Of a DNA stretch of 64,000 nucleotides, positions 33,930 to 59,531 are shown piece after piece. The notes under the pieces were generated by a model that was not told where the DNA came from, searched no databases, and saw only the letters and a list, made by a program, of their open reading frames with translations. Origin of the DNA: Lachnospiraceae bacterium (GTDB lineage: Bacteria > Bacillota > Clostridia > Lachnospirales > Lachnospiraceae). Every line of letters begins with the position of its first letter. Position 1 is the stretch's first letter. A program made the translations under genes and the position numbers. The stretch lies in NCBI GenBank assembly GCA_029053015.1, contig JAIDHX010000036.1, positions 124,001-188,000 of the forward strand, in the 5' to 3' direction.

Positions 33930-33974
33930 AGAACCAGAATTTCATAATATGTGCAATAGAGAGGAAGGATCGAG

Positions 33975-35858: not shown

Positions 35859-35875
35859 AAAGAAGAGTAGAAACT

Positions 35876-37932: not shown

Positions 37933-38371
37933 ACTGACCATCACAAACATATATTGAAGCTGACACTTTAAATCTCATTCCTTGAAGAAAAAGAATCACA
38001 CCTAGCAACCTTGGAAGGCACTGTTTTGAAAGGGATTCCGTAAAGGAATGGATTGTATGAATGAAGGATGTTTTATTCATACTTTGATAAAAACTTCGTT
38101 CAAAAAAAGAGTGCAGTTTTAACAAAAAATGTAGTAACCCGATTTTGAAGTTAGATTTCCTAAACGGTGATTAGGGAATTTGCATATGAGATTGAAATTT
38201 TGTGGCAAACACAACGAGAACATATTGTCTGGGAAAGATGGTATTGGTGTCCTTGGCTACAAATTGGCTACAAAAATTCTGAAAATACAGAGAAAATCAA
38301 TATTTTCAGAAAAACTAGCGACAGAAAACCCCGAAAACACGCCATTTGTCACACAAGGTTCTTCTAACCTA

Positions 38372-38434
38372 ATCCGTGAGGGTGGTAGAACAGTTGGTTC
38401 AGGCCGTGTTGCTACTATCATCGAGTAATCAATA
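38372..38434 (+). repeat. tuf 3'-end direct repeat, copy 2 (duplicated gene tail/putative att site)
   Basis: 63/63 bp identical to 28296-28358; encodes [18 protein letters not shown]-stop without the rest of tuf. Confidence 0.9.
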
Positions 38435-38449
38435 GAATTACAGTAAATT

Positions 38450-38486
38450 CAGGGGTTTCGGAGATTTCTCCGGAACCCTTTTTTCT
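38450..38486 (+). terminator. Intrinsic terminator directly after tuf-tail copy 2
   Basis: GGGTTTCGGAGatttCTCCGGAACCCTTTTTT. Confidence 0.85.
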
Positions 38487-38617: not shown

Positions 38618-40582
38618 TTGCAGTTTGATATTAAGAGATTTGAGAATATGAGACTGGAAATCGGTATGGGGAAGAACTGTTTTTCCATGAAACGGGGGAG
38701 TTTTGTATATAGGCAGAAAAATGTAAGAATGCAGAAGCTGTCTATGAAGGAAAAAACAGCGCTTTCGGATGGGTTCGAATTGCACTATGAGGATGAAGCA
38801 GGAAGCTATGCAGGAAAAATATGCGTAAAAGTGCAGGAAAACAGGATGCAGATAGTCTGCAGAGACATGCCCTCCGAGAAAGTGAACCGTTACAGGCTGA
38901 TATTTCCGACGAATGAAGGAGAGCATATTTACGGTTGCGGAGAGACTTATTCCAAATTGGACTTAAAAGGTGAGAAGGTGCGGATCTGGGTGGCGGAGCA
39001 CCAGAATACCAGACGGATATCGAGTAAAATTATTCGCGAGAAGCTGCTGGGAAAGCACCCTGAGAGAACGCTTAAGTTTTCTGAATATGAGTCCTATTAT
39101 GCGCAGCCAACCTTTGTTTCCAGCGATAAGTATTTTGTTCATGTCAATACGAACGCCTTTGCCGAGTTTGATTTCAGCAATCGCGGGCAGATTGCGCTGG
39201 AGCTTCAGGAATCGCCGGAGATTACGATTGGATGGGGAGACAGCTTTGAGGCGGTTTCCGAGGGATTAAGCGATGTGTTAGGCAGGCAGAAGATATTGCC
39301 GGATTGGATTTATGACGGTGGGATTTTGGCTGTGCAGGAAGGCTGCGATGCAGTTGACAGAAAGATTGAGACCGCACAGAGAGCAGGCGTGAAAATAAAC
39401 GCGGTCTGGTGTCAGGACTGGTCCGGATGCAGGAGAACCGGGTTTGGATATCAGGTGATGTGGAACTGGCAGCGGGACGATGAACTGTATCCGAAACTGC
39501 CGGATAAGATAGCAGAATGGAAGAAAAAAGGTGTACGCTTTCTGGGATATATCAATCCTTTCCTTGCGATTGAGAAAAATATCTACCGGGAGGCTTCCGA
39601 AAAAGGCTACTGCGTGAAAAATAAAAAAGGGGAGGACTACATGGTAACGATCACCACCTTCCCGGCGGCCATGATAGATTTCACGAATCCGAAGGCGTAT
39701 GAATGGTATAAGAATCTAATCAAGGAAAATATGATTGGTATCGGGATGAGCGGCTGGATGGCGGATTTCGGGGAATATCTGCCGATAGACAGCGTGCTCT
39801 ACAGCGGTGAGGATCCGGAAATCCTACATAACCAGTGGCCGGCTATCTGGGCGAAGCTCAACAGAGAGGCGATTCGGGAATGTCAGATGGAGAATGAGGT
39901 TTTCTTTTTTACCCGTGCAGGGCATACGGGGACGATCGCTCACTCGGATATGATGTGGACCGGAGACCAGCATGTGGACTGGTCGGTGGACGACGGGCTG
40001 CCGTCGGTCATTCCGGCAACTCTTTCGCTGGCGATGAGCGGATTCGGGATTACCCATTCCGATGCCGGCGGTTATACGACGATCATGCATATGCGCCGCA
40101 GCAAAGAACTTCTGATGCGGTGGGAAGAGATGAATGTTTTCTCTCCGCTGTTCCGGACCCATGAGGGAAATCAACCGGTAAATAATGTACAATTTGACAG
40201 CGATGAGGAGCTGCTTGCCCATCTGGCAAAATGCACGGCAATCCATGTTTCCTTAAAAAATTATATTAAGGATTGTGTTGTGGAAGCAGTGCAGAAAGGT
40301 ATTCCTGTGATGCGTCCTCTCTTCTATCATTACGACGAGGAGGAACTGTATCAGGAGAAGGGAGAATACCTGTTAGGCAGGGATATCCTGGTGGCTCCGG
40401 TACTGCAGGAAGGCGTTAGCGAGAGAACTTGTCTTCTGCCTTCAGAGAAATGGGTGCACTTATTTTCCGGACAAGAATATGGCGGCGGGAAGGTAACAGT
40501 ACAGGCGCCAATCGGGCAGCCGCCTGTATTTATCCGCAGGAATAGTGAGAGATTTGAAGAATTAATGAAAATAACAGAATAA
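38618..40582 (+). CDS. GH31 sulfoquinovosidase (YihQ-like)
   Basis: 'NAVWCQDWSGCRRTGFGYQVMWNW', 'GWMADFGEYLPIDSVLYSGEDPEILHNQWPAIWAKLNREA', 'MMWTGDQHVDWSVDDGLPSVIPATLSLAMSGFGITHSDAGGYTT'. Confidence 0.85.
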   Translation: MQFDIKRFENMRLEIGMGKNCFSMKRGSFVYRQKNVRMQKLSMKEKTALSDGFELHYEDEAGSYAGKICVKVQENRMQIVCRDMPSEKVNRYRLIFPTNEGEHIYGCGETYSKLDLKGEKVRIWVAEHQNTRRISSKIIREKLLGKHPERTLKFSEYESYYAQPTFVSSDKYFVHVNTNAFAEFDFSNRGQIALELQESPEITIGWGDSFEAVSEGLSDVLGRQKILPDWIYDGGILAVQEGCDAVDRKIETAQRAGVKINAVWCQDWSGCRRTGFGYQVMWNWQRDDELYPKLPDKIAEWKKKGVRFLGYINPFLAIEKNIYREASEKGYCVKNKKGEDYMVTITTFPAAMIDFTNPKAYEWYKNLIKENMIGIGMSGWMADFGEYLPIDSVLYSGEDPEILHNQWPAIWAKLNREAIRECQMENEVFFFTRAGHTGTIAHSDMMWTGDQHVDWSVDDGLPSVIPATLSLAMSGFGITHSDAGGYTTIMHMRRSKELLMRWEEMNVFSPLFRTHEGNQPVNNVQFDSDEELLAHLAKCTAIHVSLKNYIKDCVVEAVQKGIPVMRPLFYHYDEEELYQEKGEYLLGRDILVAPVLQEGVSERTCLLPSEKWVHLFSGQEYGGGKVTVQAPIGQPPVFIRRNSERFEELMKITE

Positions 40583-40593
40583 GGAGGGCGTTT

Positions 40594-42072
40594 ATGAACA
40601 CGAAGGAAAAGAGAGAGCGGAGCATGCGTGCCAAATGTGCTTACGGCTTCGCGGATATCTACGGAGGCGGCGCTTTTGTCGTTATCAGTACCTTTTTTAC
40701 CGTATTTCTCACGAAATCACTGGGCATGTCTACTGCACTGGCAGGAACCATTCCGCTGATCGGTAAAGTATGGGATGCAATCACAGATCCGCTGATGGGG
40801 AATATCTGCGACAGAACCAAGTGCCGGTTTGGCGCCAAGAGGCTGTACATATTGATCGGAAGTGTGATATCGGCGATTACATTTGTGCTGATGTGGATTA
40901 CTTTTCCGGGAAGCACAACCGGCGGACAGTATTTCTTTTATATGCTGATGTATATGTTATTCTCGACCGGCTTTACCATTGTAATGGTTCCCTATAACGC
41001 ACTGCTTCCGGATATGGTGGATGACTATACGCTGCGCAGCCAGTTTTCCGGCGTGCGTATGATCTTTTCGACATTCGGGGCAATCCTGGCCGGATTGATC
41101 CCGACGCTGATGGTGAAAGACAATACGGACGCGTCGGCTTACCTGCGGGTGGCGATCATTTTCGGAGTCATTTTCTTTATTACGATCCTGCTGACTTTCC
41201 TCGGAACGTGGGAGCGTGAAAAAGAAGTAGTGAAGATCGGCTTTGCGCAGAGCTTTGTACAGTCGCTTACGGTATATAAGAGCAGAAGTTTCCGGCTGCT
41301 GATTGCAATTTTCCTGTGCGGACAGGGGGCGGCGGATTTCGTGACGGGACTTGCCGTGTATTATGTGGATGATGTGCTCAATGCTTACGGAGGCGGAAGG
41401 TTTACCTATCTGATGGCGATTATTCTGCTGTCGCAGTTTGTAGGCACCATCCTGTTTACGCCGATTATGGCGAAGACATCCAAGAAGTTTCCGATTATGG
41501 TAGGATTTCCTGTGAGAATTGCGGCGACATTGGCTATGCTTCTGTTCTCCCATGAAGGAGCGAACTTTACGATCATTCTGGTACTGTCGTTTATTATCGG
41601 TCTGGGAATGGCGGGTTCTTCCACCAGTATCTATGCGATATTGGCAGACTTAGCGGATGTGGATGAGCTGATTACGTCCATCAACCGACCGGCTACCTGT
41701 TCTGCAATGGCAACTTTTGTGAGAAAGATTGCTACAGGTTGTTCAAGCGCCGTGATTGGTATCCTGCTCGGATGGGTCGGATACAATGAGGTCATCGCCT
41801 CCTCCGGCGGAAGGCAGAGTGCGGCAACGCAGTCCGGGATAGCCTACATTTATGTATTTGCCCCGGTCGTACTGATGGTGGCGGCCTTGGTATTTGCCAA
41901 GATATTCCCGATGAACAAGGCGGAATTTGAAGTGGTTAAAAAAGAAATCGCCCGCAGAAAAGGCGAGGATAACAGTAAGGCCAGTGCAGAAGAGATTGCG
42001 ATCTGTGAAAAGGTAACCGGCTATTCTTACGACAGACTTTGGAACAAAGAGAATGCATTAAAATTCAAATAA
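40594..42072 (+). CDS. MFS/GPH-family sugar:cation symporter (probable sulfoquinovose/SQ-glycoside importer)
   Basis: 12-TM; 'GKVWDAITDPLMGNICDRTKCRFGAKRLYILIG' GPH signature; operon context. Confidence 0.8.
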   Translation: MNTKEKRERSMRAKCAYGFADIYGGGAFVVISTFFTVFLTKSLGMSTALAGTIPLIGKVWDAITDPLMGNICDRTKCRFGAKRLYILIGSVISAITFVLMWITFPGSTTGGQYFFYMLMYMLFSTGFTIVMVPYNALLPDMVDDYTLRSQFSGVRMIFSTFGAILAGLIPTLMVKDNTDASAYLRVAIIFGVIFFITILLTFLGTWEREKEVVKIGFAQSFVQSLTVYKSRSFRLLIAIFLCGQGAADFVTGLAVYYVDDVLNAYGGGRFTYLMAIILLSQFVGTILFTPIMAKTSKKFPIMVGFPVRIAATLAMLLFSHEGANFTIILVLSFIIGLGMAGSSTSIYAILADLADVDELITSINRPATCSAMATFVRKIATGCSSAVIGILLGWVGYNEVIASSGGRQSAATQSGIAYIYVFAPVVLMVAALVFAKIFPMNKAEFEVVKKEIARRKGEDNSKASAEEIAICEKVTGYSYDRLWNKENALKFK

Positions 42073-42105
42073 AAATTACATCAAAAATCGAAGGAGAGAG
42101 AAAAG

Positions 42106-42792
42106 ATGAAATATTTTTTAGACAGCGCAAAAATGGATGAAATTAAATATGCTTATGAGACATTCGGAATTGACGGAGTGACAACGAATCCGAAACATAT
42201 CATGCTGAGCGGCAAACCGTTTCTGCGTGCAATTACGGATATTGCAGAGTGGATTAAGGAGCAGGGATTAGAGGGTTATGAGAAATTCCCGGTTTCCGTG
42301 GAAATCAATCCGCATCTTGACAATGCGCAGGAAATGATTGCCGAAGCAGAGAAAATTTCGGCAATCAGCAGTAATTTTGTCATTAAGATTCCGGCAACGG
42401 AGGCAGGTATAACCGCAGCGAGAAAATTAGAGGAAAAGGGAATCCGCACAAATGTGACATTGATCTTTTCAGCGGCACAGGCAATCCTGCCGGCGAAGAA
42501 CGGTTCGAAATTCGTATCTCCGTTTATCGGATGGAAGGAGTCAAACGGAGAGGATTGTAAGGAATATATAGAGAACATCGTAAAAATCTACAAAAATTAC
42601 GGATTTTACGGGAAGACAGAGATTATATGCGCAGCAGTGCGTACCCCCAAACAGTTTGTGGACTGTGCGGTAGCGGGAGCCGATATTGTGACAGCGGGAC
42701 TTGAAGTATATCGTGACAGCATGAAACACGCATATACCAGACAGGGCATAGAGACATTTGTGGATGCATGGGATCACACTGCAACAGAGTAA
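42106..42792 (+). CDS. Transaldolase family protein, probable 6-deoxy-6-sulfofructose transaldolase
   Basis: 'MKYFLDSAKMDEIKYAYETFGIDGVTTNPKHI...SSNFVIKIPATEAGITAARKLEEKGIRTNVTLIFS'. Confidence 0.85.
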   Translation: MKYFLDSAKMDEIKYAYETFGIDGVTTNPKHIMLSGKPFLRAITDIAEWIKEQGLEGYEKFPVSVEINPHLDNAQEMIAEAEKISAISSNFVIKIPATEAGITAARKLEEKGIRTNVTLIFSAAQAILPAKNGSKFVSPFIGWKESNGEDCKEYIENIVKIYKNYGFYGKTEIICAAVRTPKQFVDCAVAGADIVTAGLEVYRDSMKHAYTRQGIETFVDAWDHTATE

Positions 42793-42820
42793 CAGAAGAG
42801 ACAGGGAAAGGATGCGGAAA

Positions 42821-43681
42821 ATGAAAATCGGATTTATAGGTTTGGGTATCATGGGTGAATCCATGTGTGAGAATATCATCAAAAAACATGACGATCAGGT
42901 ATTTGTATTTGATTTTGTGGAAGAGAAAGTAAAGCAGCTGGCCGCTAAAGGCGCCGCAGCCTGCAAGAATTCAACGGAAGTGGCAAAGCAATCGCAGGTG
43001 ATTATTTCCATGGTTCCGAAGTCGGAGCACTCTAAAAGCGTCTACACAGAGATTCTTCCGGTACTGAACGAATCAAAGACATGTATCGATATGAGTACGA
43101 TTGATCCGGCCGTTTCCGTGGAGATATCGAAGATGGTCAAAGCAACCGGAGCACAGTTCCTGGACGCTCCTGTCGTAAAGAGTAAACCGGCTGCCATTGC
43201 CGGAAAGCTCGGCATCTATGTGGGCGGCGATGAAGAGGCTTATGAGCAGATCAAACCGATTCTGTCTTATATGGGAGAAAATGTAATCCGCATGGGCGGC
43301 AACGGAAAAGGTCTGGTCATGAAGATCTGTCACAATGCGCTGGTGGCGCAGATTCAGAACGGAGTCAACGAGACTTCCGTATTGGCGGCGGCAAACGGTA
43401 TCGATATTATGACTTTTGCCCAGGCAATTTCTTACGGCGGAGGGCAGAACTTCTATCTGGATTCGAAAAAAGAAGTGATTTCCAAAGAGGATTACACGAC
43501 GGCATTTTCTGTGGAAAATATGTCCAAAGACGTCAATATCTGCATGGAACTTGCGAAAGAGTGCCAGGTATCCATGCCGGGCGCGGCGAATGTAAAGCGC
43601 GTCTATGATACAGCCATGGAAGCCGGTTACGGGAAAGAGGACTTCTGTGCTACAGTCAAAGTTGTCAGGGAGCAGAAATAA
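42821..43681 (+). CDS. 3-hydroxyisobutyrate dehydrogenase family (YihU-like), probable sulfolactaldehyde reductase
   Basis: 'MKIGFIGLGIMGESMCENIIKKHD'; 'FLDAPVVKSKPAAIAGKLGIYVGG'; 'GNGKGLVMKICHNAL'. Confidence 0.8.
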   Translation: MKIGFIGLGIMGESMCENIIKKHDDQVFVFDFVEEKVKQLAAKGAAACKNSTEVAKQSQVIISMVPKSEHSKSVYTEILPVLNESKTCIDMSTIDPAVSVEISKMVKATGAQFLDAPVVKSKPAAIAGKLGIYVGGDEEAYEQIKPILSYMGENVIRMGGNGKGLVMKICHNALVAQIQNGVNETSVLAAANGIDIMTFAQAISYGGGQNFYLDSKKEVISKEDYTTAFSVENMSKDVNICMELAKECQVSMPGAANVKRVYDTAMEAGYGKEDFCATVKVVREQK

Positions 43682-44364
43682 TGGAACGTTTAGAACGCCT
43701 GAATCAGGTAAATAATGTAAAAATTTATCCGGTGGAATCGGAAGAATTTGCAAGTTACGGGAGGATTCTTCACGGATATGATTTTTCGGAAGCCATTTCC
43801 TATATGGAAAAAGAGACTTCCGTTCCGAAGAATGGAAATATCTATATTGCTTCACAGGAGGAGCTGGAAGCGCTTCCCGTTATGCAGAACGTATCCCGCC
43901 TGCTTTACGGCGGGATGCTGGTTCAGGCGGGATACTGTAACGGAAGAAACAGTACATATAATGGTTTTGAGTACCATAAAGGAAGCGAAATCAACATAGC
44001 GGTTACGGATTTTATGCTGGTGCTCGGGCATACCTGGGATATTCGGGACAATCACTACCGGAATGAGGACGCGCAGGTATTTTTCCTGCAAAAAGGAACG
44101 GCTATCGAGATGTATCAGACAACCCTGCACCTTTCGCCGCTGCGCGTGATGGAGGAAGGCTTTAAAGATATCGTAATTCTGCCCAAAGGCACCAATACTC
44201 CGCTGACGGAAGAGGAAAAAGAAAGCGCAGGTGTTGGTGACAGGGAGAAAGAGCTTCTGCTTATGCGCAATAAATGGGTGTTAGCGCATCCGGACAGAGA
44301 ACCGTTGATCAGGCAGGGTGCATATCCCGGCATCATCGGCGAGAACAAGGAATTGTTTTTTTAA
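43681..44364 (+). CDS. DUF4867-like protein, candidate SQ isomerase/accessory of sulfoglycolysis
   Basis: Sequence and position in operon; 'YHKGSEINIAVTDFMLVLGHTWDI' cupin-like; overlaps the upstream stop. Confidence 0.6.
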   Translation: MERLERLNQVNNVKIYPVESEEFASYGRILHGYDFSEAISYMEKETSVPKNGNIYIASQEELEALPVMQNVSRLLYGGMLVQAGYCNGRNSTYNGFEYHKGSEINIAVTDFMLVLGHTWDIRDNHYRNEDAQVFFLQKGTAIEMYQTTLHLSPLRVMEEGFKDIVILPKGTNTPLTEEEKESAGVGDREKELLLMRNKWVLAHPDREPLIRQGAYPGIIGENKELFF

Positions 44365-44382
44365 AAGGAGTATGGAAGAAAA

Positions 44383-45126
44383 ATGAAAGAATTATTTTTC
44401 TTTTTGACAATCTTCCTTGCAAATATTATCCAGGGAATTACAGGATTTGCGGGAACCATTCTTGCGATGCCGTTTGGTATTATGCTGATGGGATATGATG
44501 TGACAAAGCCGGTATTGAATGTGCTGGGATTATTGTCAGGTATCTACGTATTTCTGGGTAACCGCGAGCATGTGAACCGGAAAGAATTAAAGCGGATTGT
44601 TCTTGTCATGGTAATCGGTATCTTTGCAGGCATGGGGCTGAAAAATTTTGTCGGAACCAACCAAATGATTTTATATCAGGCATTGGGAAGCTTCGTAGTC
44701 CTGCTTGCCGTGCATGGTCTGTACCGGATGATGGCAGCTAGGAAAAAGCAGGAAGAGGACGGGCAAAAGGAACACCGCCTGAAGGACTTCCTGCTCTTAA
44801 CTGCGGCGGGAGTCGTACATGGCATCTTTGTGTCAGGAGGTCCGCTGCTGATTGGATATCTGACCGGAAGGATATCTGACAAAAGGTCTTTTCGGGCTAC
44901 GATTTCCACTGTCTGGATTTTGCTGAATACCATTATATTGATTGGGGATATCCATGCGGGGATGTGGAATAAAGACAATCTGTGCATTCTGGGTATCTCT
45001 TTTCCGGTTTTGATGGCCGGAATGTTTGTAGGCGGGAAATTGTATCGGATTATGAGCCAGAAATTTTTCATGATTCTGACATATGTTTTGCTGCTGATTT
45101 CGGGAGTGACACTATTTTGCAAATAG
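44383..45126 (+). CDS. TauE/SafE (TSUP) family permease, candidate sulfonate exporter
   Basis: 'LANIIQGITGFAGTILAMPFGIMLMGYD', 8-TM-like, 'GIFVSGGPLLIGYL'. Confidence 0.8.
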   Translation: MKELFFFLTIFLANIIQGITGFAGTILAMPFGIMLMGYDVTKPVLNVLGLLSGIYVFLGNREHVNRKELKRIVLVMVIGIFAGMGLKNFVGTNQMILYQALGSFVVLLAVHGLYRMMAARKKQEEDGQKEHRLKDFLLLTAAGVVHGIFVSGGPLLIGYLTGRISDKRSFRATISTVWILLNTIILIGDIHAGMWNKDNLCILGISFPVLMAGMFVGGKLYRIMSQKFFMILTYVLLLISGVTLFCK

Positions 45127-45170
45127 GAAGATGAAAAGGAGAAGGTTGAGAAAGGAGCAAGGGTATCATA

Positions 45171-46511
45171 ATGAAAAAATTTGAAGTTGCATATATACCG
45201 GTGGGAGTTCCCACATTTCATTTGGAAAGCGCAGGTAAAGAATTCGAGAAGTCGATCGCTTTGTTGCGGTCCGTTGCGGAAGATGTGAAGGTTCCTGATG
45301 AGATGTTGTTGTCGTTAGACCTCTTGAAAGAATTTATGAAGGATTTACATCCGGATCTGATTGTGCTGCAGAATATTACGTTTGCAAACTCAGCCTATGT
45401 TTCAGAGGTGCTGGCAGCATTCGATTGTCCGATACTGCTCTGGACGCTCAGGGAGCCGGTGATAGACGGCGGAAGACTTCGTCTGAATTCTCTGACAGGC
45501 GCATATTCTGCGGCAAATATGATTAAAACATTTCGCGAGGAGCCGTTTACCTATGTATTCGGCGCGCCGCAGGAAGAAGAAGTAATCGCTGCGGTGACTT
45601 CTGCCGTGCGGGCGGCAAAGCTGAAATTTGATATGAAGAATCTGAAATTAACGGCAATCGGACATACGCCGCAGGGATTTGGTTTTGGCCGTGCACTGGA
45701 TTCGGAGCTCTTAAAAACATTTGGTGTGAGACTGGAGTCTATCGAGGCAAGGGAATTAATTGACAGAGCGAAAACCTTTTCCGATGAGGAAGTATCGGAG
45801 TATCTGGATGATGCGCGGAGCCGTATATGCGGATTAGAGAATATTGCGCAAGAGAATGTTTTGAATTTTGCAAGGCTGTATAAGGCATATAAGGAATATG
45901 TGAAAGAAAATCATGTCGGTGCGATCGCTTCCCGCTGCTGGCCGGACTTTTTTACCGCGTTTGGAACACCGGTATGTGCTGTTCTGGCAATGCTGAATGA
46001 TCTTGGGGTGGCTGCAAGCTGCGAGGCGGATACCTATGGAGCTTTATCGATGTATCTGGGGATGCGGCTGACAGATAAGCCGGTATTCTTCGGTGATCCG
46101 GTCTCCATGGATGAAAAAGAGAACACGATCACATATTGGCACTGTGGGACAGCGGCATGTTCTCTGGCAAAGGAAGAACCGGGGGCATGCGCGGATGTGC
46201 ACTGCAACAGGAAAATCGGCCCGACACTGGATTTCGCCTGTAAGGCAGCGGAAAGTGTTACGGTATTCCGGATAGGAAGAAAGCCGGACGGGACATTCCG
46301 CTTCTTTATCACAGAAGGAGAGGCATTGGATACGCCAAAGCAGTTTAACGGAACCTCCATTGTCGTGAAAACCTGCAATCCTGCAAGGCAGATTGTGGAA
46401 AACAGTGTACTGGCAGGCTGGGAGCCGCATTTTGTCGTAATCTACGGAAATGTAAAAAAAGAACTTGAAATATTAGGAAATATGCTTAATGTAGAAGTGG
46501 TTAATTATTGA
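45171..46511 (+). CDS. L-fucose/L-arabinose isomerase family protein
   Basis: 'DCPILLWTLREPVIDGGRLRLNSLTGAYSAANMIK'; 'AIASRCWPDFFTAFGTPVCAVLAMLNDLGVAASCEADTYGALSMYLG'. Confidence 0.8.
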   Translation: MKKFEVAYIPVGVPTFHLESAGKEFEKSIALLRSVAEDVKVPDEMLLSLDLLKEFMKDLHPDLIVLQNITFANSAYVSEVLAAFDCPILLWTLREPVIDGGRLRLNSLTGAYSAANMIKTFREEPFTYVFGAPQEEEVIAAVTSAVRAAKLKFDMKNLKLTAIGHTPQGFGFGRALDSELLKTFGVRLESIEARELIDRAKTFSDEEVSEYLDDARSRICGLENIAQENVLNFARLYKAYKEYVKENHVGAIASRCWPDFFTAFGTPVCAVLAMLNDLGVAASCEADTYGALSMYLGMRLTDKPVFFGDPVSMDEKENTITYWHCGTAACSLAKEEPGACADVHCNRKIGPTLDFACKAAESVTVFRIGRKPDGTFRFFITEGEALDTPKQFNGTSIVVKTCNPARQIVENSVLAGWEPHFVVIYGNVKKELEILGNMLNVEVVNY

Positions 46512-46521
46512 GCGAATTTTT

Positions 46522-46600
46522 ATGGGGCTTTCCGAGAAATCGGGAGGCCCTTTTTACGTTCTGAAATAGGTGGAAGGGTTGACAAAAGTTGATTATATGA
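46522..46600 (+). repeat. Copy of tuf terminator/downstream segment
   Basis: About 90% identical by eye to 28373-28452, including the GGGCTTTCC...CCC terminator hairpin. Confidence 0.85.
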
Positions 46601-46601
46601 T

Positions 46602-46622
46602 AAACTTAACAGTGTTAAGTTT
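46602..46622. promoter_or_regulatory. Perfect 21-bp palindrome, probable TetR operator
   Basis: AAACTTAACA-G-TGTTAAGTTT immediately upstream of tetR-family gene. Confidence 0.75.
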
Positions 46623-46632
46623 GGAGGTTGAG

Positions 46633-47208
46633 ATGGATAAAAAATATCATCATGGAGATTTAAAAATTCAATTAATAAAGACCGGTTTGCATATGATACA
46701 AGAAGACGGAATTCATAAGTTGTCTTTAAGAAAACTGGCGCAGTTGTGTAATGTCAGCGAAGCTGCGCCTTATAGTCATTTTAAAAATAAGGGCGAATTA
46801 TTGATTGCAATTCAAGAATATATAACCGAACAATTGCAAAAATGTCTGGAAGATGCCTATGAGAGAACAGAGCATGGTAATTCCCCGATAGCAATATTAA
46901 ACATGGGAAAAGCTTATGTCCAATTTTTTATTAGGTATCCCGAATACTATTCATTTTTATTTGCACAACCTTATTTGAAGATAGATTTATCTATGGGTAA
47001 TGAACCAAATGCATTTGAGCCTTTTCAATACTATAAGGAGAAGGCATATACGATTTATAAGAACGAAGGTTTCAGTGAGGAACGTATTAAGTATGGTATT
47101 ATCGCCATGTGGGCAAAGGTTCATGGTATTGCAGCTATTGCTTCGATGCAAGGCGTAAAGAGAGATTTTGAATGGGAAGATGTTTTAGATAAAATATTGG
47201 TTGAATAG
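46633..47208 (+). CDS. TetR/AcrR family transcriptional regulator
   Basis: 'HHGDLKIQLIKTGLHMIQEDGIHKLSLRKLAQLCNVSEAAPYSHFKNKGELLIAI'. Confidence 0.92.
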   Translation: MDKKYHHGDLKIQLIKTGLHMIQEDGIHKLSLRKLAQLCNVSEAAPYSHFKNKGELLIAIQEYITEQLQKCLEDAYERTEHGNSPIAILNMGKAYVQFFIRYPEYYSFLFAQPYLKIDLSMGNEPNAFEPFQYYKEKAYTIYKNEGFSEERIKYGIIAMWAKVHGIAAIASMQGVKRDFEWEDVLDKILVE

Positions 47209-47218
47209 GTGATACATA

Positions 47219-48316
47219 ATGAAAAGAAAGAGAGTGCCTAAAATGATAATAGGTTTTTCGGTGTTTGCTGCAGTTTTACTGCTGTTAATTTTAATTGTTT
47301 TTCCACCAAGCAGGGGCATAATACCGCAATTTTGTAATGAAAATGGAGAAATTATTGAGAATAGCATAGCCGAAAAGTGTTATTTAGAAGTTGAAGATGG
47401 AAATCTCGGAATGATTATTATGGCAAAGGATATTAGTAATCCGGTCTTATTGGTTTGCGGAGGGGGACCGGGAATTCCGGAATATTTGATGGAATATAGG
47501 TATCCGTCCGGTCTTGCAGATAAATTTGTGGTTTGCTATTTGGAATATAGGGGAACCGGATTATCATACAGCTCTGATATCAAAGCAGAAGAGATGACCA
47601 CGGAAATATATATATCAGATGTTGTTGCAGTAAGCAAATATTTGTCCGAAAGATTTGGACAAGAGAAAATATATATTATGGGACATTCGTTTGGTACATA
47701 TATTGCCATCAAAACAGTACAGCGATATCCGGATTATTATCATGCATATATAGCAATGGCGCAGATTTGCAATCAGACAGAGTCTGAATATATGGCATAT
47801 GATTATATGAAAGCTCAATATGAGCAGCTAGGTAATACCAAAATGGTTGAGAAATTTGAGAATTGTCCGATTCGAGAATCCGATGAAATGTATGCAAAGT
47901 ATTTTTCATCTTCTTTGCGTGATACAGCAATGCATGAGTTAGGCGTTGGTACAACAAGAGATATGGACTCTGTAATTACCGGAATTTTCTTCCCAAGTTT
48001 GAGATGTAAGGCTTATACCTGGCAGGAAAGAATAAATATATGGAGAGGGAAAGGGCTGTCTGCACAATTTCCTGTTGTAAAGGATTCTACGCATTTCAAT
48101 GCTTTTAGTGAAGTACCTTCTTTACAGATTCCTATTTACTTTTTTGCAGGAAAATACGATTATACATGCAGTTTTGATTTGCAATATGAGTATTATTTAC
48201 AAATTGATGCACCAATAAAAGAATTTTATGTGTTTAATAATTCGGCGCATAGTCCTATATTTGAAGAGCCGGAAGCGGCATCTAAATTGATTGAAGAGAT
48301 ATTAGAAGTAGAATAG
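47219..48316 (+). CDS. Membrane-anchored alpha/beta hydrolase (proline iminopeptidase-like)
   Basis: 'VLLVCGGGPGIPEYLM...CYLEYRGTGLSYSSD...EKIYIMGHSFGTYIAIKTVQRYP'; N-terminal TM. Confidence 0.85.
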   Translation: MKRKRVPKMIIGFSVFAAVLLLLILIVFPPSRGIIPQFCNENGEIIENSIAEKCYLEVEDGNLGMIIMAKDISNPVLLVCGGGPGIPEYLMEYRYPSGLADKFVVCYLEYRGTGLSYSSDIKAEEMTTEIYISDVVAVSKYLSERFGQEKIYIMGHSFGTYIAIKTVQRYPDYYHAYIAMAQICNQTESEYMAYDYMKAQYEQLGNTKMVEKFENCPIRESDEMYAKYFSSSLRDTAMHELGVGTTRDMDSVITGIFFPSLRCKAYTWQERINIWRGKGLSAQFPVVKDSTHFNAFSEVPSLQIPIYFFAGKYDYTCSFDLQYEYYLQIDAPIKEFYVFNNSAHSPIFEEPEAASKLIEEILEVE

Positions 48317-48331
48317 TACGAAATTCAGTTT

Positions 48332-48361
48332 GGTTAAGGCAGTGTTGCTACTATCATCGAG
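48332..48361 (+). repeat. Truncated tuf 3'-end repeat, copy 3 (putative att remnant)
   Basis: GGTTaAGGCaGTGTTGCTACTATCATCGAG, 28/30 identical to 28320-28349. Confidence 0.8.
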
Positions 48362-48469
48362 GGGATGGCCTTGTTGTTTGGGGTGTGGTATAATCAGATA
48401 AACAAATCAGAATCAGCAAACAAGCGGAGTTATAAGCTTGGATTGCCTGAATCATGATCGGAGAATAAT

Positions 48470-49462
48470 ATGGGTGAAAATTATAAACCTCCTTTTACAA
48501 TGAATGAGGAGATAACAAATTTAATAGTAGAGATAGGAGAGTATGTTGGTACAATCACAACTTACGATGCTATGCGTCCGAATCCAATTCTCCGCAGGGA
48601 AAATAGGATCAAGACGATACACTCATCTCTGGCGATAGAGCAGAACACGCTTACTTTGGAACAGGTTACGGATGTGATAAATGGAAAGCGGATATTAGGA
48701 CCGCCACAGGATATTCGCGAAGTAAAGAATGCATATGAGGCTTATGAAAGAGTATCCGTGCTTGATCCATACAGTGTGAAAAACCTTTTGCTGGCCCATA
48801 AGATTATGATGGAAGGGCTTGTGAAAGAAGCAGGAAGTTTTCGAAGCGGGAATGTTGGCGTTTATGCCGGAACAGAACTGATTCATGCAGGATCACCGGC
48901 AAAATATGTGCCGGATTTAATGAATCAGTTGTTCACATGGCTGAAGCAATCGAAATATCATCCGCTTGTGAAGTCTTGCGTCTTTCATTATGAGTTTGAG
49001 TTTATTCATCCTTTTGCTGATGGCAATGGTCGGACAGGGAGATTGTGGCAGTCATTGATTTTGCAGAAATGGAAAGAAGTTTTTGCATGGATTCCGGTAG
49101 AAACGCTTGTGTATGAAAATCAGGGGGAATATTATAAGGTACTGAAGCGGGCTGATAACACTGGGGATTCTACCGAATTTGTAGAGTTTATGCTTGGGAT
49201 GATTCGCAATGCCTTAAAGGAGATCAGCGAATCACATAACGGAACAAATGTCGTAATAAATGTCGGCGTAAATGTCGTGACAAATGAGGAAAAAATAATA
49301 GCTCTTTTAAGGCAAGATGGCAATATGTCAGCTAATATGTTGTCTGTATCTGTGGGAATTACCGGAAGGCAGGCACAGCGTATTTTGGCTAAACTAAAGG
49401 CGGAAGGAAAAATAATACGACATGGGGCAAATAAAAACGGTTACTGGGAAGTTATAGATTAA
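48470..49462 (+). CDS. Fic family protein with C-terminal winged-helix-like domain
   Basis: 'HPFADGNGRTGRLWQ' Fic motif; 'IHSSLAIEQNTLT'. Confidence 0.92.
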   Translation: MGENYKPPFTMNEEITNLIVEIGEYVGTITTYDAMRPNPILRRENRIKTIHSSLAIEQNTLTLEQVTDVINGKRILGPPQDIREVKNAYEAYERVSVLDPYSVKNLLLAHKIMMEGLVKEAGSFRSGNVGVYAGTELIHAGSPAKYVPDLMNQLFTWLKQSKYHPLVKSCVFHYEFEFIHPFADGNGRTGRLWQSLILQKWKEVFAWIPVETLVYENQGEYYKVLKRADNTGDSTEFVEFMLGMIRNALKEISESHNGTNVVINVGVNVVTNEEKIIALLRQDGNMSANMLSVSVGITGRQAQRILAKLKAEGKIIRHGANKNGYWEVID

Positions 49463-49497
49463 AAATCCGAAACAGTGTATAGCTTTTTGGTGAGGAA

Positions 49498-49965
49498 ATG
49501 ATAATGAAAGAAATAATTGCATATGAGATGTCTTTCGATAAAACATTGGAGTATCAGAATGATATAAATTGTGTTCCTTTTCAAGAACAATACTGGAATG
49601 AGTATATGAGAATATATAATGAATGTTTTTATCAAATGAGAAAAGTATTGGAGGTTGAGCCAATAAACTTTTATTCTGACTACTCTCAAATCAAAGATAA
49701 AATAAACGATATCTTTCTTTATTTGCAAAATGGAGTAATAGTAGGAGCTGTTTCCTGCTATGGAAATGAGTTAGATGATTTAATTGTCGCGAAATCGTTT
49801 CAAGGACAGGGGATAGGGCAAAAACTGTTATTATGGGGAATGAATCATATAAAGGAACAAAGCTACGAAGAAATTCTTTTACATGTAGCTGAATGGAACC
49901 AAAATGCAGTGAAGTTGTATTTGAAAAATGGATTTAGTATCAAGAAAAAGGAAAAGGTTCGTTAG
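49498..49965 (+). CDS. GNAT family N-acetyltransferase
   Basis: 'DDLIVAKSFQGQGIGQKLLLWGMNHIKEQ...WNQNAVKLYLKNGFSIKKKEKVR'. Confidence 0.85.
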   Translation: MIMKEIIAYEMSFDKTLEYQNDINCVPFQEQYWNEYMRIYNECFYQMRKVLEVEPINFYSDYSQIKDKINDIFLYLQNGVIVGAVSCYGNELDDLIVAKSFQGQGIGQKLLLWGMNHIKEQSYEEILLHVAEWNQNAVKLYLKNGFSIKKKEKVR

Positions 49966-50076
49966 AGTTGGGTTCGCTTGGGGGAAGTAGAATGTTTAGT
50001 ATGTTTTGTCTTTAGTGATATGAAAGATGTGGTGCTGCTGTTATGGAGTAAGATTGATTTTATCAGTAAAGCTACT

Positions 50077-50109
50077 ATATCCCGTCGAGAAATCGACGGG
50101 ATATTTTTG
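50077..50109 (+). terminator. Intrinsic terminator
   Basis: ATATCCCGTCGA gaaa TCGACGGGATAT TTTT, perfect 12-bp stem with GAAA loop. Confidence 0.85.
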
Positions 50110-50197
50110 CATAGACTATTTATTTGGAAACATAGGATGATTTCTTGGACGGAAAAGAGTATCATGTAATTATGATGATTTAGAAGGAGGAGTCATA

Positions 50198-50596
50198 ATG
50201 CAGAATAAAGCGCAGGCACTTATGGAAAAAATAGGTATTAAAGAATTATTTGAAATTCCGCATGGAAAATTACAAGGCAGCACAGTACTTGCTACAAATG
50301 AAAAAGAAAATTTAACGGTTTCACAATTGCTGAAATCTGCGGAGTATTTAATTAAATTTATAAAAAGTAATTTTGATGTAGATGAATATCGGTATTCGAC
50401 TACTATAATTTTCTTAAAGTCAGTGCAATTAGTGCTAAATAATGGGAAAGCAGATAAACCAAGTAAAGAGGATGCACACATTATTATAGATGTTATACAT
50501 GAGATAGCGGATATGCGTGCTAAAAACGACTATGAAAAGAAATTAAATGAAGAAATTGCAGTGTCATTAAACTGTCTGATTGAAATATTAAAATAG
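50198..50596 (+). CDS. Hypothetical protein
   Basis: RBS aaggagg; complete ORF upstream of R-M operon. Confidence 0.45.
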   Translation: MQNKAQALMEKIGIKELFEIPHGKLQGSTVLATNEKENLTVSQLLKSAEYLIKFIKSNFDVDEYRYSTTIIFLKSVQLVLNNGKADKPSKEDAHIIIDVIHEIADMRAKNDYEKKLNEEIAVSLNCLIEILK

Positions 50597-50741
50597 ACCA
50601 TGTATTTTACATCTTTTGGAATAATATTTAATTTTCAAATTATAATATTTGATTTTTCAAATTGTTAATTTGATAAAATAGTGTTACAATTTATAATAAG
50701 GTATTCAGCGCTGACTTATAGAAAGCGAGAGGAATAAAATT

Positions 50742-50945
50742 ATGGCAATCAGTTATAACGGATTATGGAAGTTATTGATTGATAAGGGTATGAAAAAGGG
50801 CGATTTATGTAAAAGTACAGGTTTAAGCTCTAGTACCATGGCGAAAATGACTAATGGAGAGTCTGTGAATTTATCTGTTCTGGAACGTATATGCGCAGAA
50901 CTTGATTGTGATTTTGGAGACTTAGTAAATTATAAAAAACCTTAG
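50742..50945 (+). CDS. Small XRE/Cro-type HTH protein, probable R-M operon regulator
   Basis: 'LWKLLIDKGMKKGDLCKSTGLSSSTMAKMTNGESVNLSVLERICAELDCDFGDLV'. Confidence 0.85.
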   Translation: MAISYNGLWKLLIDKGMKKGDLCKSTGLSSSTMAKMTNGESVNLSVLERICAELDCDFGDLVNYKKP

Positions 50946-50961
50946 GAGGAAGCTGATAAAG

Positions 50962-52719
50962 ATGAGCAACGATAAAATCAGTGATGTTGGAATAAATATT
51001 GCGGAAAAGGCTACTGTTATTTGGAATGTGGCAGATATGCTTCGTGGACCATTCAAACCGCATGAATATGGTCTTGTTATCTTACCGATGACAGTGGTTA
51101 AGAGATTTCATGATTGTTTGTTACCTACCCATGATAATGTGCTTGCGCAATATGAAAAAGTAAAACATTTGGCAGTCATTGATGGATTTTTGACAAGAGC
51201 ATCCGGATATCAATTTTATAACACAAGTAAATTTACTTTTGAGACACTTTTGGCTGATCCGGATAATATAGAAACAAACTTTAAAGATTATTTAGCAGGT
51301 TTTTCAGCAAATGCGCAGGATGTATTATCTAAGTTTGATTTTGATAATATTATCAAAAGAATGGTGGAGAGCAATACACTGTATCTTATTATCAAAGAAT
51401 TTAATTCTGAAAAAGGATACTTAGGAGCTGACAAAATCAGTGCCGTGGACTGTGGTTACATTTTTGAAGATTTAGTACGGCGCTTTTCAGAGTCCTTTGG
51501 CGAGGAAGCGGGAGCACATTTTACCAGTAGGGATATTATATATCTTATGACAGATTTGCTTCTTGCGGATGCCAATTTAGATACAGGTGGAATGACTGTT
51601 TATGATATGACCATGGGAACATCCCAGATGCTTTCTTGTATGGAGGAGAGAATTCATGATCTGAATAGCGATATAGAGGTTACTTGTTTTGGACAGGAGT
51701 TCAACCCATCCACCTATGCGATAGCAAAAGCAGATATGATGATTCGCGGCGGAGATCCGGATAATATGCGGTTTGGAGATACCTTGTCTGATGATCAGTT
51801 TGCAGGTTTTACCTTTGATTATTGTATTTCTAATCCGCCTTTTGGAATTGACTGGAAGCGTGAACAGAAAAAGGTGGAAGAAGAAGCAGCAAGAGGAGAA
51901 CAGGGAAGATTTGCACCCGGACTTCCTAAAATCAGTGATGGTCAGCAGTTATTTGTGTTAAACGGACTTTCTAAACTAGCACCAGATGGGAAAATGGCAA
52001 TTATACAAAATGGTTCTCCGCTATTTTCAGGAGATGCGGGGAGCGGCCCATCAGAGATTAGAAGATATATTTTGGAAAACGATTGGTTGGACTGTATAGT
52101 GCAGCTTTCTACAGATATGTTTATGAATACGGGTATCAGCACCTATATTTGGATCTGTTCCAAAAATAAGCCTACATATAGGGAGGGAAAGGTACAACTT
52201 ATCGATGCTTCTCATTGTTATGAGGCTAGAAGAAAAAGTATTGGAATGAAACGGAATGATATTACAGACAAATGTCGGGAACTGATTGTAAAGGCTTATG
52301 GTTCCTTTGAAAATTGTGCTGTGTACGGAGATAAGAACGGAATATATTGTGAGAGTAAAATATTTGAGACGGTAGAGTTTGGATATAACAAAATTGTGGT
52401 GGAAAGACCTGAACGAGATGAGAATGGGGAAATCGTCTTGAAAAAAGGAAAGCCTGTTGCAGATGCAAATTTGCGTGATACGGAGAATGTACCGCTGGTG
52501 CAGGATATCGATAGGTACTTTGAGAGAGAAGTGCTCCCCTATGCGGAAGATGCATGGATTGATAAGAAAAAGACTAAGGTGGGGTATGAAATACCTATGA
52601 CAAGATATTTCTATGAGTATCAGGCTCCGGAAAAGGTGGAGGATATTGTGGCTCGGATTCATGTGTTAGAGGCTGATATTTCTGCATCTTTAGAGAAATT
52701 GTTTGCTGAGGAGAAATAG
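50962..52719 (+). CDS. hsdM: Type I restriction-modification methyltransferase subunit HsdM
   Basis: 'IWNVADMLRGPFKPHEYGLVILPMTVVKRF', 'GAHFTSRDIIYLMTDLL', 'ISNPPFGIDWK'. Confidence 0.95.
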   Translation: MSNDKISDVGINIAEKATVIWNVADMLRGPFKPHEYGLVILPMTVVKRFHDCLLPTHDNVLAQYEKVKHLAVIDGFLTRASGYQFYNTSKFTFETLLADPDNIETNFKDYLAGFSANAQDVLSKFDFDNIIKRMVESNTLYLIIKEFNSEKGYLGADKISAVDCGYIFEDLVRRFSESFGEEAGAHFTSRDIIYLMTDLLLADANLDTGGMTVYDMTMGTSQMLSCMEERIHDLNSDIEVTCFGQEFNPSTYAIAKADMMIRGGDPDNMRFGDTLSDDQFAGFTFDYCISNPPFGIDWKREQKKVEEEAARGEQGRFAPGLPKISDGQQLFVLNGLSKLAPDGKMAIIQNGSPLFSGDAGSGPSEIRRYILENDWLDCIVQLSTDMFMNTGISTYIWICSKNKPTYREGKVQLIDASHCYEARRKSIGMKRNDITDKCRELIVKAYGSFENCAVYGDKNGIYCESKIFETVEFGYNKIVVERPERDENGEIVLKKGKPVADANLRDTENVPLVQDIDRYFEREVLPYAEDAWIDKKKTKVGYEIPMTRYFYEYQAPEKVEDIVARIHVLEADISASLEKLFAEEK

Positions 52720-52721
52720 GT

Positions 52722-54011
52722 ATGGCTAGAGAAATGAAGGTTAGTGGGGTTGAGTGGATTGGAGAGATTCCGGTAGATTGGAATATAAAAAGAAATAAAC
52801 TGCTTTTTGTTGAGGTAAACAATAGGTGTGAAAACGGTAATGAACATATGTTACTTTCAGTTTCTGAATATTATGGGGTCGCACCTAAATCTGAAAAAGT
52901 ATCTGATGGAGAGTTTGAAACCCGAGCAGAGACACTAGACGGATATAAATTGTGTCAATCAGAAGATATTGTTATGAATATTATGCTTGCGTGGAAACGC
53001 TCTACAGGAAGAAGCGCTTATGATGGCATAGTAAGCCCTGCATACTGTGTATATAGAAAAAAAGCTGATATAGACACAAAGTATTATCACTATCTTTTTA
53101 GAACAGATATAGTAGCAGAGTTATTTAAAAGGTACTCAACAGGAATTATAGATTCTCGTTTAAGGCTATATCCTGATAAATTTATGGGTTTGAATATGAT
53201 TGTTCCCCCTTGCGACGAACAGTGTCAAATAGCAGAATATCTTGATCAGCAATGCGTCTATATAGATTCCGTTATAGAAAAAACAAAAGTTTCTATAGAC
53301 GAATATATAAAATTAAAACAGGCAATTATCACGCGGACAGTAACTAAAGGTGTGCGTGGTGATAGGGAAATGAAGGACAGTGGAATTGAGTGTATTGGGC
53401 AGATTCCTAGTAACTGGGATATGAGAAAGATTAAATATATTTTCAAAATTCAGAAAGAAATTGCTGGAGAAGAAGGACATACTGTGCTATCTATAACACA
53501 AAAAGGGATTAAGCCAAAAGATTTAACTAGAAATGAGGGGCAATTAGCTGAAAACTATAGTAATTATCAACTTGTACATATGGGTGATTTTGCTATGAAT
53601 CATATGGACTTATTAACCGGTTGGGTAGATATTTCCAAATATGAGGGCGTAACAAGTCCCGATTATAGGGTGTTTCGGTTAATTGATAAGGATAATTATT
53701 ATAGTAAATACTACTTATATTTGATGCAGATGTGTTATACGAATCGTATTTTTTATGGATTAGGGCAAGGAGTAAGTGGATTAGGAAGATGGAGATTGCA
53801 AGCGGATAAATTTTTGAATTTTTCTATTACAGTACCAAGTTATGAAGAACAGGAAGAGATTGCGGATTATCTTGACAAAAAATGTTATGCAATAGATGAC
53901 CTTATTGCCAAGAAAGAGCAATATCTTTCCGAGATAGAAAATTATAAAAAATCTCTGATTTACGAATATGTTACAGGTAAAAAAGAAGTACCACAGGAAT
54001 ATCAAGCATAA
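52722..54011 (+). CDS. hsdS: Type I restriction specificity subunit HsdS
   Basis: Two TRD repeats: 'MKVSGVEWIGEIPVDWNIKRNK' and 'MKDSGIECIGQIPSNWDMRKIKY'; 'EEQEEIADYLDKKC'. Confidence 0.93.
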   Translation: MAREMKVSGVEWIGEIPVDWNIKRNKLLFVEVNNRCENGNEHMLLSVSEYYGVAPKSEKVSDGEFETRAETLDGYKLCQSEDIVMNIMLAWKRSTGRSAYDGIVSPAYCVYRKKADIDTKYYHYLFRTDIVAELFKRYSTGIIDSRLRLYPDKFMGLNMIVPPCDEQCQIAEYLDQQCVYIDSVIEKTKVSIDEYIKLKQAIITRTVTKGVRGDREMKDSGIECIGQIPSNWDMRKIKYIFKIQKEIAGEEGHTVLSITQKGIKPKDLTRNEGQLAENYSNYQLVHMGDFAMNHMDLLTGWVDISKYEGVTSPDYRVFRLIDKDNYYSKYYLYLMQMCYTNRIFYGLGQGVSGLGRWRLQADKFLNFSITVPSYEEQEEIADYLDKKCYAIDDLIAKKEQYLSEIENYKKSLIYEYVTGKKEVPQEYQA

Positions 54012-54048
54012 GGTGCAGATATTATCCATAATTTGGAGGGGGAAATCA

Positions 54049-56160
54049 ATGAAACATATAGAAATTGAATCTACATGGGATATGTTTTTAGATGTCATTA
54101 ATGGCTTATATCTCGAATTTAATCCTATGTCTGTAGCAGATACATGCTATGTTGATATTGAGGAGGCATGCAAAAAACTTGCTTGTTATTCCGTTTCACA
54201 GGATATGGGGCATGGTAAAAAATCGCCAAAAGAGCTGTTGGAGATGGAAAAATGTGGGCTGATTGTAAACAGCCATATTTTAGTTCGATTAACGAGGCAT
54301 TATTATCTGTTGGGTGTTATAGATGGGAAAGATACCAAACAGTTATGTGATTTATTGAAAACGCTCCATGATTATTTAGGAAATCAGTATTACTATTCTG
54401 TGGATAGGAAAATTATAGAACAACTGCTTGCATTAAGCATTAGCCTCCCAACTATATGTCGCCATCAACATAATGTATATGACGAAAGGATGGCACAGTC
54501 TGCTCGATTTTTAAAGGAACAGGGTTTTTCGTTATCTGTGAAAATGGGCACTATTTCCTATTCTGATGAAACTGGTCAGGAATTTTTTAATCTTCTGGAA
54601 CGAAAAATAGCAACAATAGGCGGCAACACAGTGTATAAAGCGATTATGGAAAAATATGTGGCACAACGGTATTTTTCGGATATGGATCGCTACCTATATG
54701 GAAGAACACTTGACCAAGAAAGAAATGAGCCGTTTAATCTTTTGCTTCAGATATCTGCAAAGCATCTGAGACAGGGTCGGGATTTACAGATAACTGAAGA
54801 TGTAAAAGGATATGTGGATGGAATTATAACTCTTGCAGAGGCTATTTTGGATGTCTGTGATGTTCAGGGAACCTCTGGAATTGAATATGGCATGATGAAC
54901 CTGGAACTTTTCCCTCTTTTTCTAATAAATGAAATGATATTTGATAAAATTTGTGTGGCGCGACAGTACAGTGCAAGATATATTCTGTTGTCTTTGGATT
55001 ATTTGATAAAACCATGGTTTAATTATGCCCAAAGGGACTATTCTTATGAGGATTATTATAAGGTAGCTGACTATATATTAAAGAGACCAACTTACTGTGG
55101 ATATGTGGATACAAAGATATTGAGAGAAGAAACGGGTATTGCATTTTATCGGTTGAAACAGATTTTAAAAGATATATCTCTTCCAGCAAAGGATGTGAAT
55201 CGTGAATTTACCTCTTTAGATGGCAGAATAAATCTGTTTACCAGGCCGATTATTGGTTTTGCATCAGAACCATATCTGTTTCTGGATGAACATTTTTGTG
55301 GAATCGGTTTTTTTTATGCTGCCTGCGACATAATACGCCAAAATTATTCTATTTTGGAACGTAAGCAGGGGGAGGCTGTTGAGCAGATGCTTCGAGATGA
55401 AATGGAGAAAAAAGGTTATGGCATTAAATATGGAACTTATCCGGAAAAAAATGGCATCAAATCTGGACAATGTGACCTTGTGTTACAAAATACAAAATTA
55501 GCTTTTTTTGAAATAAAGAAAAAAAGTATCACAAACGAACTTGATGTTTTAGATGATGTTACTGTATTAGAAAATATGACATTTGGCATGGTGCGGGCAC
55601 AGAAACAATGTTTTTTTCATGAATGCTATCTAAAATCAAATGGAGAAATGCTTTTGCAGGATTGTCAGCAGAAAATCACCTGTGAAAACGGATCTATTCC
55701 AGCTTATAAAATTAGTGTATGTTATCCGGAATATATGTTTTTAACTAATAAAATGTTCAGTATGAACTTGTTGGAAATATTGTTGTTAGGTGAATTTAAG
55801 ACGAACGATCCGAATCTCCAAGGGAAATTGGATAAATTGAATCAAGTCGGTGAGGAAATTCGTAAATGTGTTATCTCCCAAAATCCAGGGCATTCCATTC
55901 ATGCACGGGAAATCTCTTTCTATTCGCTGTTCTGTAGCATGCAGCAAATTTTGACGGCGGTTTGGTGGTGTGCGGATGAGAAGGAATTTTTTCAGGTACT
56001 TGATGCTTGGTTCTATTCAACTGATAAAACATTGGATCCATACATATCTCTTTTTGCAACAAAGGTTATAAACATTGATTCGCAAGAAAACTCAGTAAGG
56101 AAAGCAATGCTAGAATTGGTGAAGAACAGGGAAACGCCCACTATGATAATAGGAGGATGA
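54049..56160 (+). CDS. Uncharacterised ~700-aa protein with C-terminal PD-(D/E)xK-like nuclease motif, embedded between hsdS and hsdR
   Basis: ATG 54049 with RBS ggaggggg; 'LRDEMEKKGYGIKYGTYPEKNGIKSGQCDLVLQNTKLAFFEIKKKSI'. Confidence 0.65.
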   Translation: MKHIEIESTWDMFLDVINGLYLEFNPMSVADTCYVDIEEACKKLACYSVSQDMGHGKKSPKELLEMEKCGLIVNSHILVRLTRHYYLLGVIDGKDTKQLCDLLKTLHDYLGNQYYYSVDRKIIEQLLALSISLPTICRHQHNVYDERMAQSARFLKEQGFSLSVKMGTISYSDETGQEFFNLLERKIATIGGNTVYKAIMEKYVAQRYFSDMDRYLYGRTLDQERNEPFNLLLQISAKHLRQGRDLQITEDVKGYVDGIITLAEAILDVCDVQGTSGIEYGMMNLELFPLFLINEMIFDKICVARQYSARYILLSLDYLIKPWFNYAQRDYSYEDYYKVADYILKRPTYCGYVDTKILREETGIAFYRLKQILKDISLPAKDVNREFTSLDGRINLFTRPIIGFASEPYLFLDEHFCGIGFFYAACDIIRQNYSILERKQGEAVEQMLRDEMEKKGYGIKYGTYPEKNGIKSGQCDLVLQNTKLAFFEIKKKSITNELDVLDDVTVLENMTFGMVRAQKQCFFHECYLKSNGEMLLQDCQQKITCENGSIPAYKISVCYPEYMFLTNKMFSMNLLEILLLGEFKTNDPNLQGKLDKLNQVGEEIRKCVISQNPGHSIHAREISFYSLFCSMQQILTAVWWCADEKEFFQVLDAWFYSTDKTLDPYISLFATKVINIDSQENSVRKAMLELVKNRETPTMIIGG

Positions 56161-56404
56161 GTAAAAAGATTATTACGCAAATGATAGAATTATTAAATGT
56201 TTCCATAAATTTGTTATAATGAAATCCTGTTAATAACTATTTACAAAAATTATTATTCCTTACTTGATACAGGCAGATCTGGCCTTTTTATAATTGGCTT
56301 TTGCGTTGTTATATTTTGATTGATTTAAAGGTAGACAAGCTGACGTATCAGGACATCATATTACTGCAGGATAAGGTCAGACAATGGATTGCGGAGGAAG
56401 AAGC

Positions 56405-59400: not shown

Positions 59401-59488
59401 AGTAGCATATATGTATGATGAGTCGCGGAATCTGTCTATGGTGGCGGAAGAGTCTGCATCATGCAGTAATGGAATGGAGTTCAAATAG
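56405..59488 (+). CDS. hsdR: Type I restriction endonuclease subunit HsdR
   Basis: '[22 protein letters not shown]', '[16 protein letters not shown]', '[17 protein letters not shown]', '[18 protein letters not shown]'. Confidence 0.95.
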
Positions 59489-59531
59489 TATACCATATCA
59501 ATAGAAAAGATAATATCTTTTGAGGACAATT

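Follow-up and report, generated by a model that had tools for sequence, protein, structure and literature searches.

The 3′ end of tuf as the very probable attachment site of integrative mobilizable elements in Lachnospiraceae, with an array of modules probably grown by repeated insertion

Introduction

Why does the end of tuf, the host gene for EF-Tu, recur downstream of the gene itself in the genome of a Lachnospiraceae bacterium? The window considered here is the whole stretch of 64,000 nucleotides in which this was noticed. An original prediction, made from its letters, had described the 30-mer GGTTAAGGCAGTGTTGCTACTATCATCGAG at 48332-48361 as a third, diverged copy of the tuf tail, which together with two others would divide an island into interchangeable cassettes of different composition and cargo, left by repeated (accretive) integration at one hotspot.

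Results

Copies of the tuf tail

The 30-mer at 48332-48361 matches the end of tuf (28320-28349) at 28 of 30 positions, as predicted, and the agreement lies far beyond chance. The 20-mer contained in it occurs three times in the window (≤3 mismatches) at an expectation of 0 in shuffled sequence, and a profile of the 55-bp tail (nhmmer) scored 65 bits with each of copies 1 and 2, 45 with copy 4, and 24.5 with copy 3, the top score in 20 random 104-kb sequences being 9.0 bits. The predicted location was likewise correct, the 30-mer starting 9,936 bp past copy 2 and being flanked by the genes for an alpha/beta hydrolase (47219-48316) and a Fic protein (48470-49462). Extension of the search beyond position 64000, where a further copy had been suspected, located the decayed copy 4 at window coordinate 67162-67214, 3.2 kb past the end of the window; its 20-mer (C30:191193-191212, equal to window coordinate 67193) has three mismatches. 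In the whole 3.69-Mb genome the 20-mer was found four times, on a single strand of a single contig (C30), and every one of the four copies lies on the strand of tuf and at most 39 kb from its end, so that the copies are tied to tuf and not placed at random.

The edges of the repeat were taken from intact extra copies at 40 loci in the genus, which start with CGTGARGG, end with GAGTAAT, and have 55 bp in common between sharp edges (CGTGA and TAAT). This core equals the final 17 codons of tuf plus the stop codon. On the 5′ side of the extra cores tuf is absent, and one of several recurring, unrelated element right ends stands there instead; on the 3′ side recurring left ends follow, often with a terminator. 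The 20-bp block that had been put forward as a minimal core was rejected because the intact genus copies share 55 bp, and the 20-mer is what the deletion in copy 3 has left over.

In the 20 kb that were scanned, the window left ends at 28375, 38451, and 46524 rank among the top four terminator-like sites; for the left end at 50052-50115 the fold z was −6.8. As left ends carry terminators, a module could, judging from this anatomy, provide tuf with a new one. LE-b was considered as the native tuf terminator and rejected, because in G066 and G068 it runs into an integrase-bearing element.

Modules of the array

The array has the order tuf, A, core, B, lost core, D, copy 3, C1, remnant, C2, copy 4, and hydrolase-carB flank (Table 1), and the expectation of cassettes differing in composition and cargo and interchangeable between genomes was confirmed.

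Table 1. Features of the tuf array in window coordinates.
Feature	Position	Strand	Evidence or remark
tuf (EF-Tu), host gene, 3′ end the probable attachment site	27165..28352	+	ORF, translation; 97.8% DNA identity in G017
Copy 1, 55-bp putative attachment core, last 17 tuf codons and stop (attL)	28299..28353	+	nhmmer 65.4 bits; edges from genus copies
Module A left end, type LE-c	28354..28456	+	direct repeat with 46511-46604; intrinsic terminator 28375-28402
Module A, 10 kb, about 30-40% GC	28354..38374	+	without integrase or relaxase
Module A right end, type RE-e	38254..38374	+	also precedes copy 4; further copies in other genomes
Copy 2, intact 55-bp core separating module A from module B	38375..38429	+	55/55 to copy 1
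Module B left end, type LE-b	38430..38483	+	strong terminator 38451-38480
Cargo of module B, about 45-49% GC, a sulfoquinovose operon (sulfo-TAL-like)	38618..46511	+	family matches
Module D truncated left end (LE-c), fused to last B gene, core lost	46511..46604	+	88% to 28362-28456
Module D, cassette of two genes (TetR regulator and alpha/beta hydrolase) that has lost its right end by deletion	46511..48339	+	G049 comparison
Copy 3, last about 20 bp of tuf tail	48341..48361	+	G049 comparison; 24.5 bits for 48330-48361
Module C1, Fic and GNAT genes	48362..50029	+	Pfam
Start of module C2, with a putative decayed core remnant and a terminator-bearing left end	50029..50107	+	left end 89%/54 bp to post-core sequence of G085
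Module C2, type I restriction-modification, then nSTAND-like NTPase	50149..64000, on to 67161 past the window	+	

Module A carries a type II restriction enzyme and methyltransferase, a DUF2971 gene, two HTH genes, and a gene for a 627-aa protein (33975-35858), the last having no match in Pfam, PADLOC, or NCBIfam. Its LE-c block is also found 3′ of tuf tails in G017, G049, G076, and G014. An 88% copy of RE-e occurs at C30:191053-191127 and in G047, G015, and G019, and at locus L143 a 232-bp stretch that takes in core and LE-b as well as RE-e is 85% identical. The LE-b block of module B adjoins tuf-tail cores in G066, G085, G090, G068, and G095 and follows the right-hand core in G037. The operon of module B reached 403.7 bits with the SftI model (under its 700-bit cut-off) and 789.7 bits with GH31 PRK10426, with further matches to an aldolase, a sulfolactaldehyde-reductase-like protein, and a GPH transporter. 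Sulfoquinovose operons of 69-76% identity were seen in G053, G073, G050, G036, and G515; at the one locus examined (G053) the tuf core was not found.

In module C1, the Fic gene is 93% identical to a gene further along the G049 array, and the GNAT gene 94% identical to one that G017 has about 2.3 kb after its tuf, this homology stopping at 50037. The core remnant at about 50029-50051 is very weak when scored alone (1.7 bits); it was called because of the G085 left end, the end of the G017 homology, and the start of the G526 homology at 50149. The HsdM/HsdS part of module C2 is found at 81-82% identity directly after the tuf core in G526 and G013, HsdR at 87-90% in G041 and G515, and C2 may itself be composite. 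Between HsdS and HsdR, within the type I operon, lies a 730-aa gene (53968-56160) with no significant family match.

No integrase (PF00589) was found on contig C30 and no relaxase among the scanned island proteins; the rest of the genome has only seven other tyrosine recombinases and a 47-residue fragment of the tuf-linked integrase type. The window modules, which have cargo and neither of the two genes, are therefore read as CIME-like remnants. Module A, with a core on both sides and no integrase, has the structure of a CIME, and modules B, D, C1, and C2 have each had at least one core lost or eroded.

Copy 3 and its counterpart in G049

In G049, the order tuf, left end, TetR, hydrolase, right end, core forms an intact 2.1-kb cassette, in which the LE-c block of module D comes directly after the tuf core and which has 96.9% DNA identity to window 46579-48339 over 1761 bp. 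The sequence ...TTTGGTTAAGG on the 5′ side of copy 3 belongs to the hydrolase cassette as its 3′ flank and is also present in the intact G049 cassette. Since the hydrolase gene of G049 is followed by TTTGGTTAAGGGAAGC, the GGTTaAGG of copy 3 belongs to the cassette, and within copy 3 only about 48341-48361 is tuf tail. Copy 3 thus contains real tuf-tail sequence, as had been claimed, but is not simply an older or drifted copy: a drifted att site was rejected on the strength of the G049 cassette, and by this comparison copy 3 is a deletion scar joining module D to the final 20 bp or so of the tail. A GGTTnAGG microhomology may have guided the deletion.

Integrases and mobilizable relatives

The integrase adjoining tuf in G072 was used as the first search query, followed by an alignment (A1) of seven integrases. 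In other genomes, the nearest relatives of the G072 integrase mostly sit shortly after a tuf tail, in related Lachnospiraceae usually at a distance of 1-5 kb. At 60 of 77 named integrase loci the same strand has a tuf core <6.5 kb upstream; at many of the other 17 the core is farther away or downstream, or the locus begins at a contig end. According to their records, the loci come from Roseburia, Butyrivibrio, Blautia, Parablautia, and Eubacterium plexicaudatum, among others. These integrases have arm-binding, SAM-like, and catalytic domains. The relaxase of the G006 element matched Mob_Pre (3.9e-19, MOBV type), those of other elements were recognised by eye alone, and an AAA_25 ATPase is encoded in an intact relative. 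With an integrase next to the attachment site (60/77) and a relaxase (G006 element), the tuf-linked elements of the relatives are, by their gene content, integrative mobilizable elements (IMEs); the window modules possess neither gene of their own. Plasmid and phage collections yielded only integrase relatives of <60% identity and no sign of a free form.

A search of 397 Lachnospiraceae genomes revealed tandem same-contig copies in many genera, with three copies on G331 contig C1. The 27 extra same-contig copies, from 24 genomes, all share the strand of the first copy at a distance of 1.4-27 kb, the true tuf being established for some of these pairs and not for every one. Tandem elements with one target-derived core were found in the window, G014, G096, G331, and others. 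Accretive integration at one hotspot, as originally proposed, is thereby borne out, and the same site is used across Lachnospiraceae.

The sister species G017 retains the hydrolase-carB flank (95%) in addition to tuf; of what lies between the flanks, it has in common with the window just the tuf-adjacent left end, 42 bp of Fic, and GNAT, in a region that is split across two contigs (gap). Modules A and B had no match in the G017 genome. Behind tuf in G017 (L165:1806-3680), two genes resemble RloA/RloB by eye. The identity of module D between the window genome and G049 stands beside 77.9% for fusA and 75% for carB.

Variation within the core

Differences from the consensus at codon positions 1/2/3 numbered 49/11/339 in the intact non-coding copies and 65/8/379 in real tuf tails, and the 17-residue EF-Tu end is still encoded by 43 of the 74 copies outside tuf. 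The non-coding copies therefore look like displaced tuf tails; free-standing DNA would soon lose the codon pattern, so they should recently have been part of tuf or have been exchanging with it. Core positions 1-30 are closer to the host's own tuf than to other tufs, and later positions are not. The tuf ends of the window and G017 are identical up to core position 41 and different beyond, which suggests that exchange took place in the right-hand half of the core; the host-like left half of far copies is not accounted for by a single fixed crossover. Use of the core variation as an element tag was rejected, as it has no clear relation to the left- or right-end family. Far copies match the host tuf in their first 30 bp whatever the element family.

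Discussion

The 3′ end of tuf is very probably the attachment site of a Lachnospiraceae IME family, and the array in the window very probably grew by repeated insertion at it. This reading is favoured because module D (G049), restriction-modification genes (G526, G013), and GNAT (G017) are also found behind tuf, and because G017 keeps both flanks and shares little between them. Elements carrying a Tn916-type tyrosine integrase would use the tuf 3′ end as their chromosomal site and, as the anatomy and the comparison of genomes suggest, recombine within the 55-bp core. The tuf-proximal junction would keep the complete tuf coding end and stop codon, and the insertion would bring in the left end of the element, often with a new terminator, and push the tail copy to the far end of the insert. 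The displaced tail would be a good target, so that later elements would settle beside earlier ones and arrays would grow. On this model, at least four or five modules separate tuf from the chromosomal hydrolase-carB flank; in those of the window, integrase and relaxase would have been lost or would never have been present, and deletion would have eroded several junctions. Against this model, neither an excised circle nor a proven empty attB was observed, no integrase or relaxase was found in the array itself, and the core variation, which does not track element family and is host-like over the first 30 bp, does not agree with a single fixed crossover.

Homologous recombination between tuf tails by incoming DNA, with the copies as by-products, would fit the host-like core positions 1-30 and the identity of window copies 1 and 2 over 55 bp, and some conversion between copies is likely for these reasons. 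As the source of the array it is very improbable, since a 55-bp unit with the same two edges and unrelated flanks is found in many species, 55 bp is short for such an exchange, and a specific integrase stands beside the core in 60/77 loci. Somewhat less remote, but still unlikely, is a single gain of the array as a composite island between two cores that was later broken up. Tandem composites can move together (PMC5704250), and the RE-e/core/LE-b junction also exists in another species; successive insertions are preferred in view of the lone modules next to tuf in other species, the differing base composition of the modules, and the largely different content in the closest species.

Growth by repeated insertion leaves room for two origins of the small integrase-less cassettes such as D, which could be decayed IMEs or a separate kind of element using the tuf-specific integrases of others. 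The G049 cassette, with two genes in 2.1 kb, a core on each side, and a recent move between species, speaks for a separate kind; IME decay or carriage in a larger composite would look alike, and D is the single such cassette looked at closely, so this option is regarded as possible but doubtful. It is an equally tentative idea that the tuf end serves as a shared Lachnospiraceae cassette platform, on which integrase-less tuf-tail mini-cassettes are moved between species by IME integrases acting in trans; defence and metabolic genes would then be passed around in a way comparable to integron or SCC arrays.

Among known systems, IMEs resemble the tuf-linked relatives in the tyrosine integrase, the MOBV-type relaxase (one element tested), and the conserved gene 3′ end left intact; the window modules differ in lacking integrase and relaxase, and the site here is tuf. 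For IMEs, tandem formation has been reviewed as three steps, in which an element integrates, decays to a CIME, and is joined by another through accretion (PMC5704250). The streptococcal ICE/CIME tandems are like the window modules in being stacked in tandem with cores kept and no integration or transfer genes, whereas the tuf array has more modules than a simple pair, several eroded junctions, and a family-wide occurrence in Lachnospiraceae. The accretion mechanism is thus of a known kind (IME/CIME), and the tuf site is apparently undescribed: no paper on tuf as an integration site was found in the literature searched, which mostly excluded subscription journals, and the word tuf is absent from PMC5704250.

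Other systems are alike in layout. Integrons also array interchangeable cassettes at one site; in the window, however, the array contains no tyrosine integrase, a tuf tail takes the place of attC as the repeat, and the modules are multi-gene and up to about 17 kb in size. In staphylococci, SCC cassettes line up in tandem, with direct repeats, where the housekeeping gene rlmH ends; large serine recombinases (ccr) act there, although some of the cassettes have no recombinase. The tuf arrays share the tandem layout at a housekeeping-gene 3′ end and differ in having a tyrosine integrase and tuf in place of ccr and rlmH.

The tuf end would thus be a fixed address for the gain and loss of defence systems and catabolic genes, such as the sulfoquinovose operon, in gut Lachnospiraceae. 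A defined 55-bp core with a matching integrase makes site-specific exchange directly testable in these bacteria, and a simple sequence search with the core delimits such islands. Of the recurring element ends, the RE-e block (38254-38339) was seen in more than 10 genomes, lying about 2 kb off the listed core in G015 and G019.
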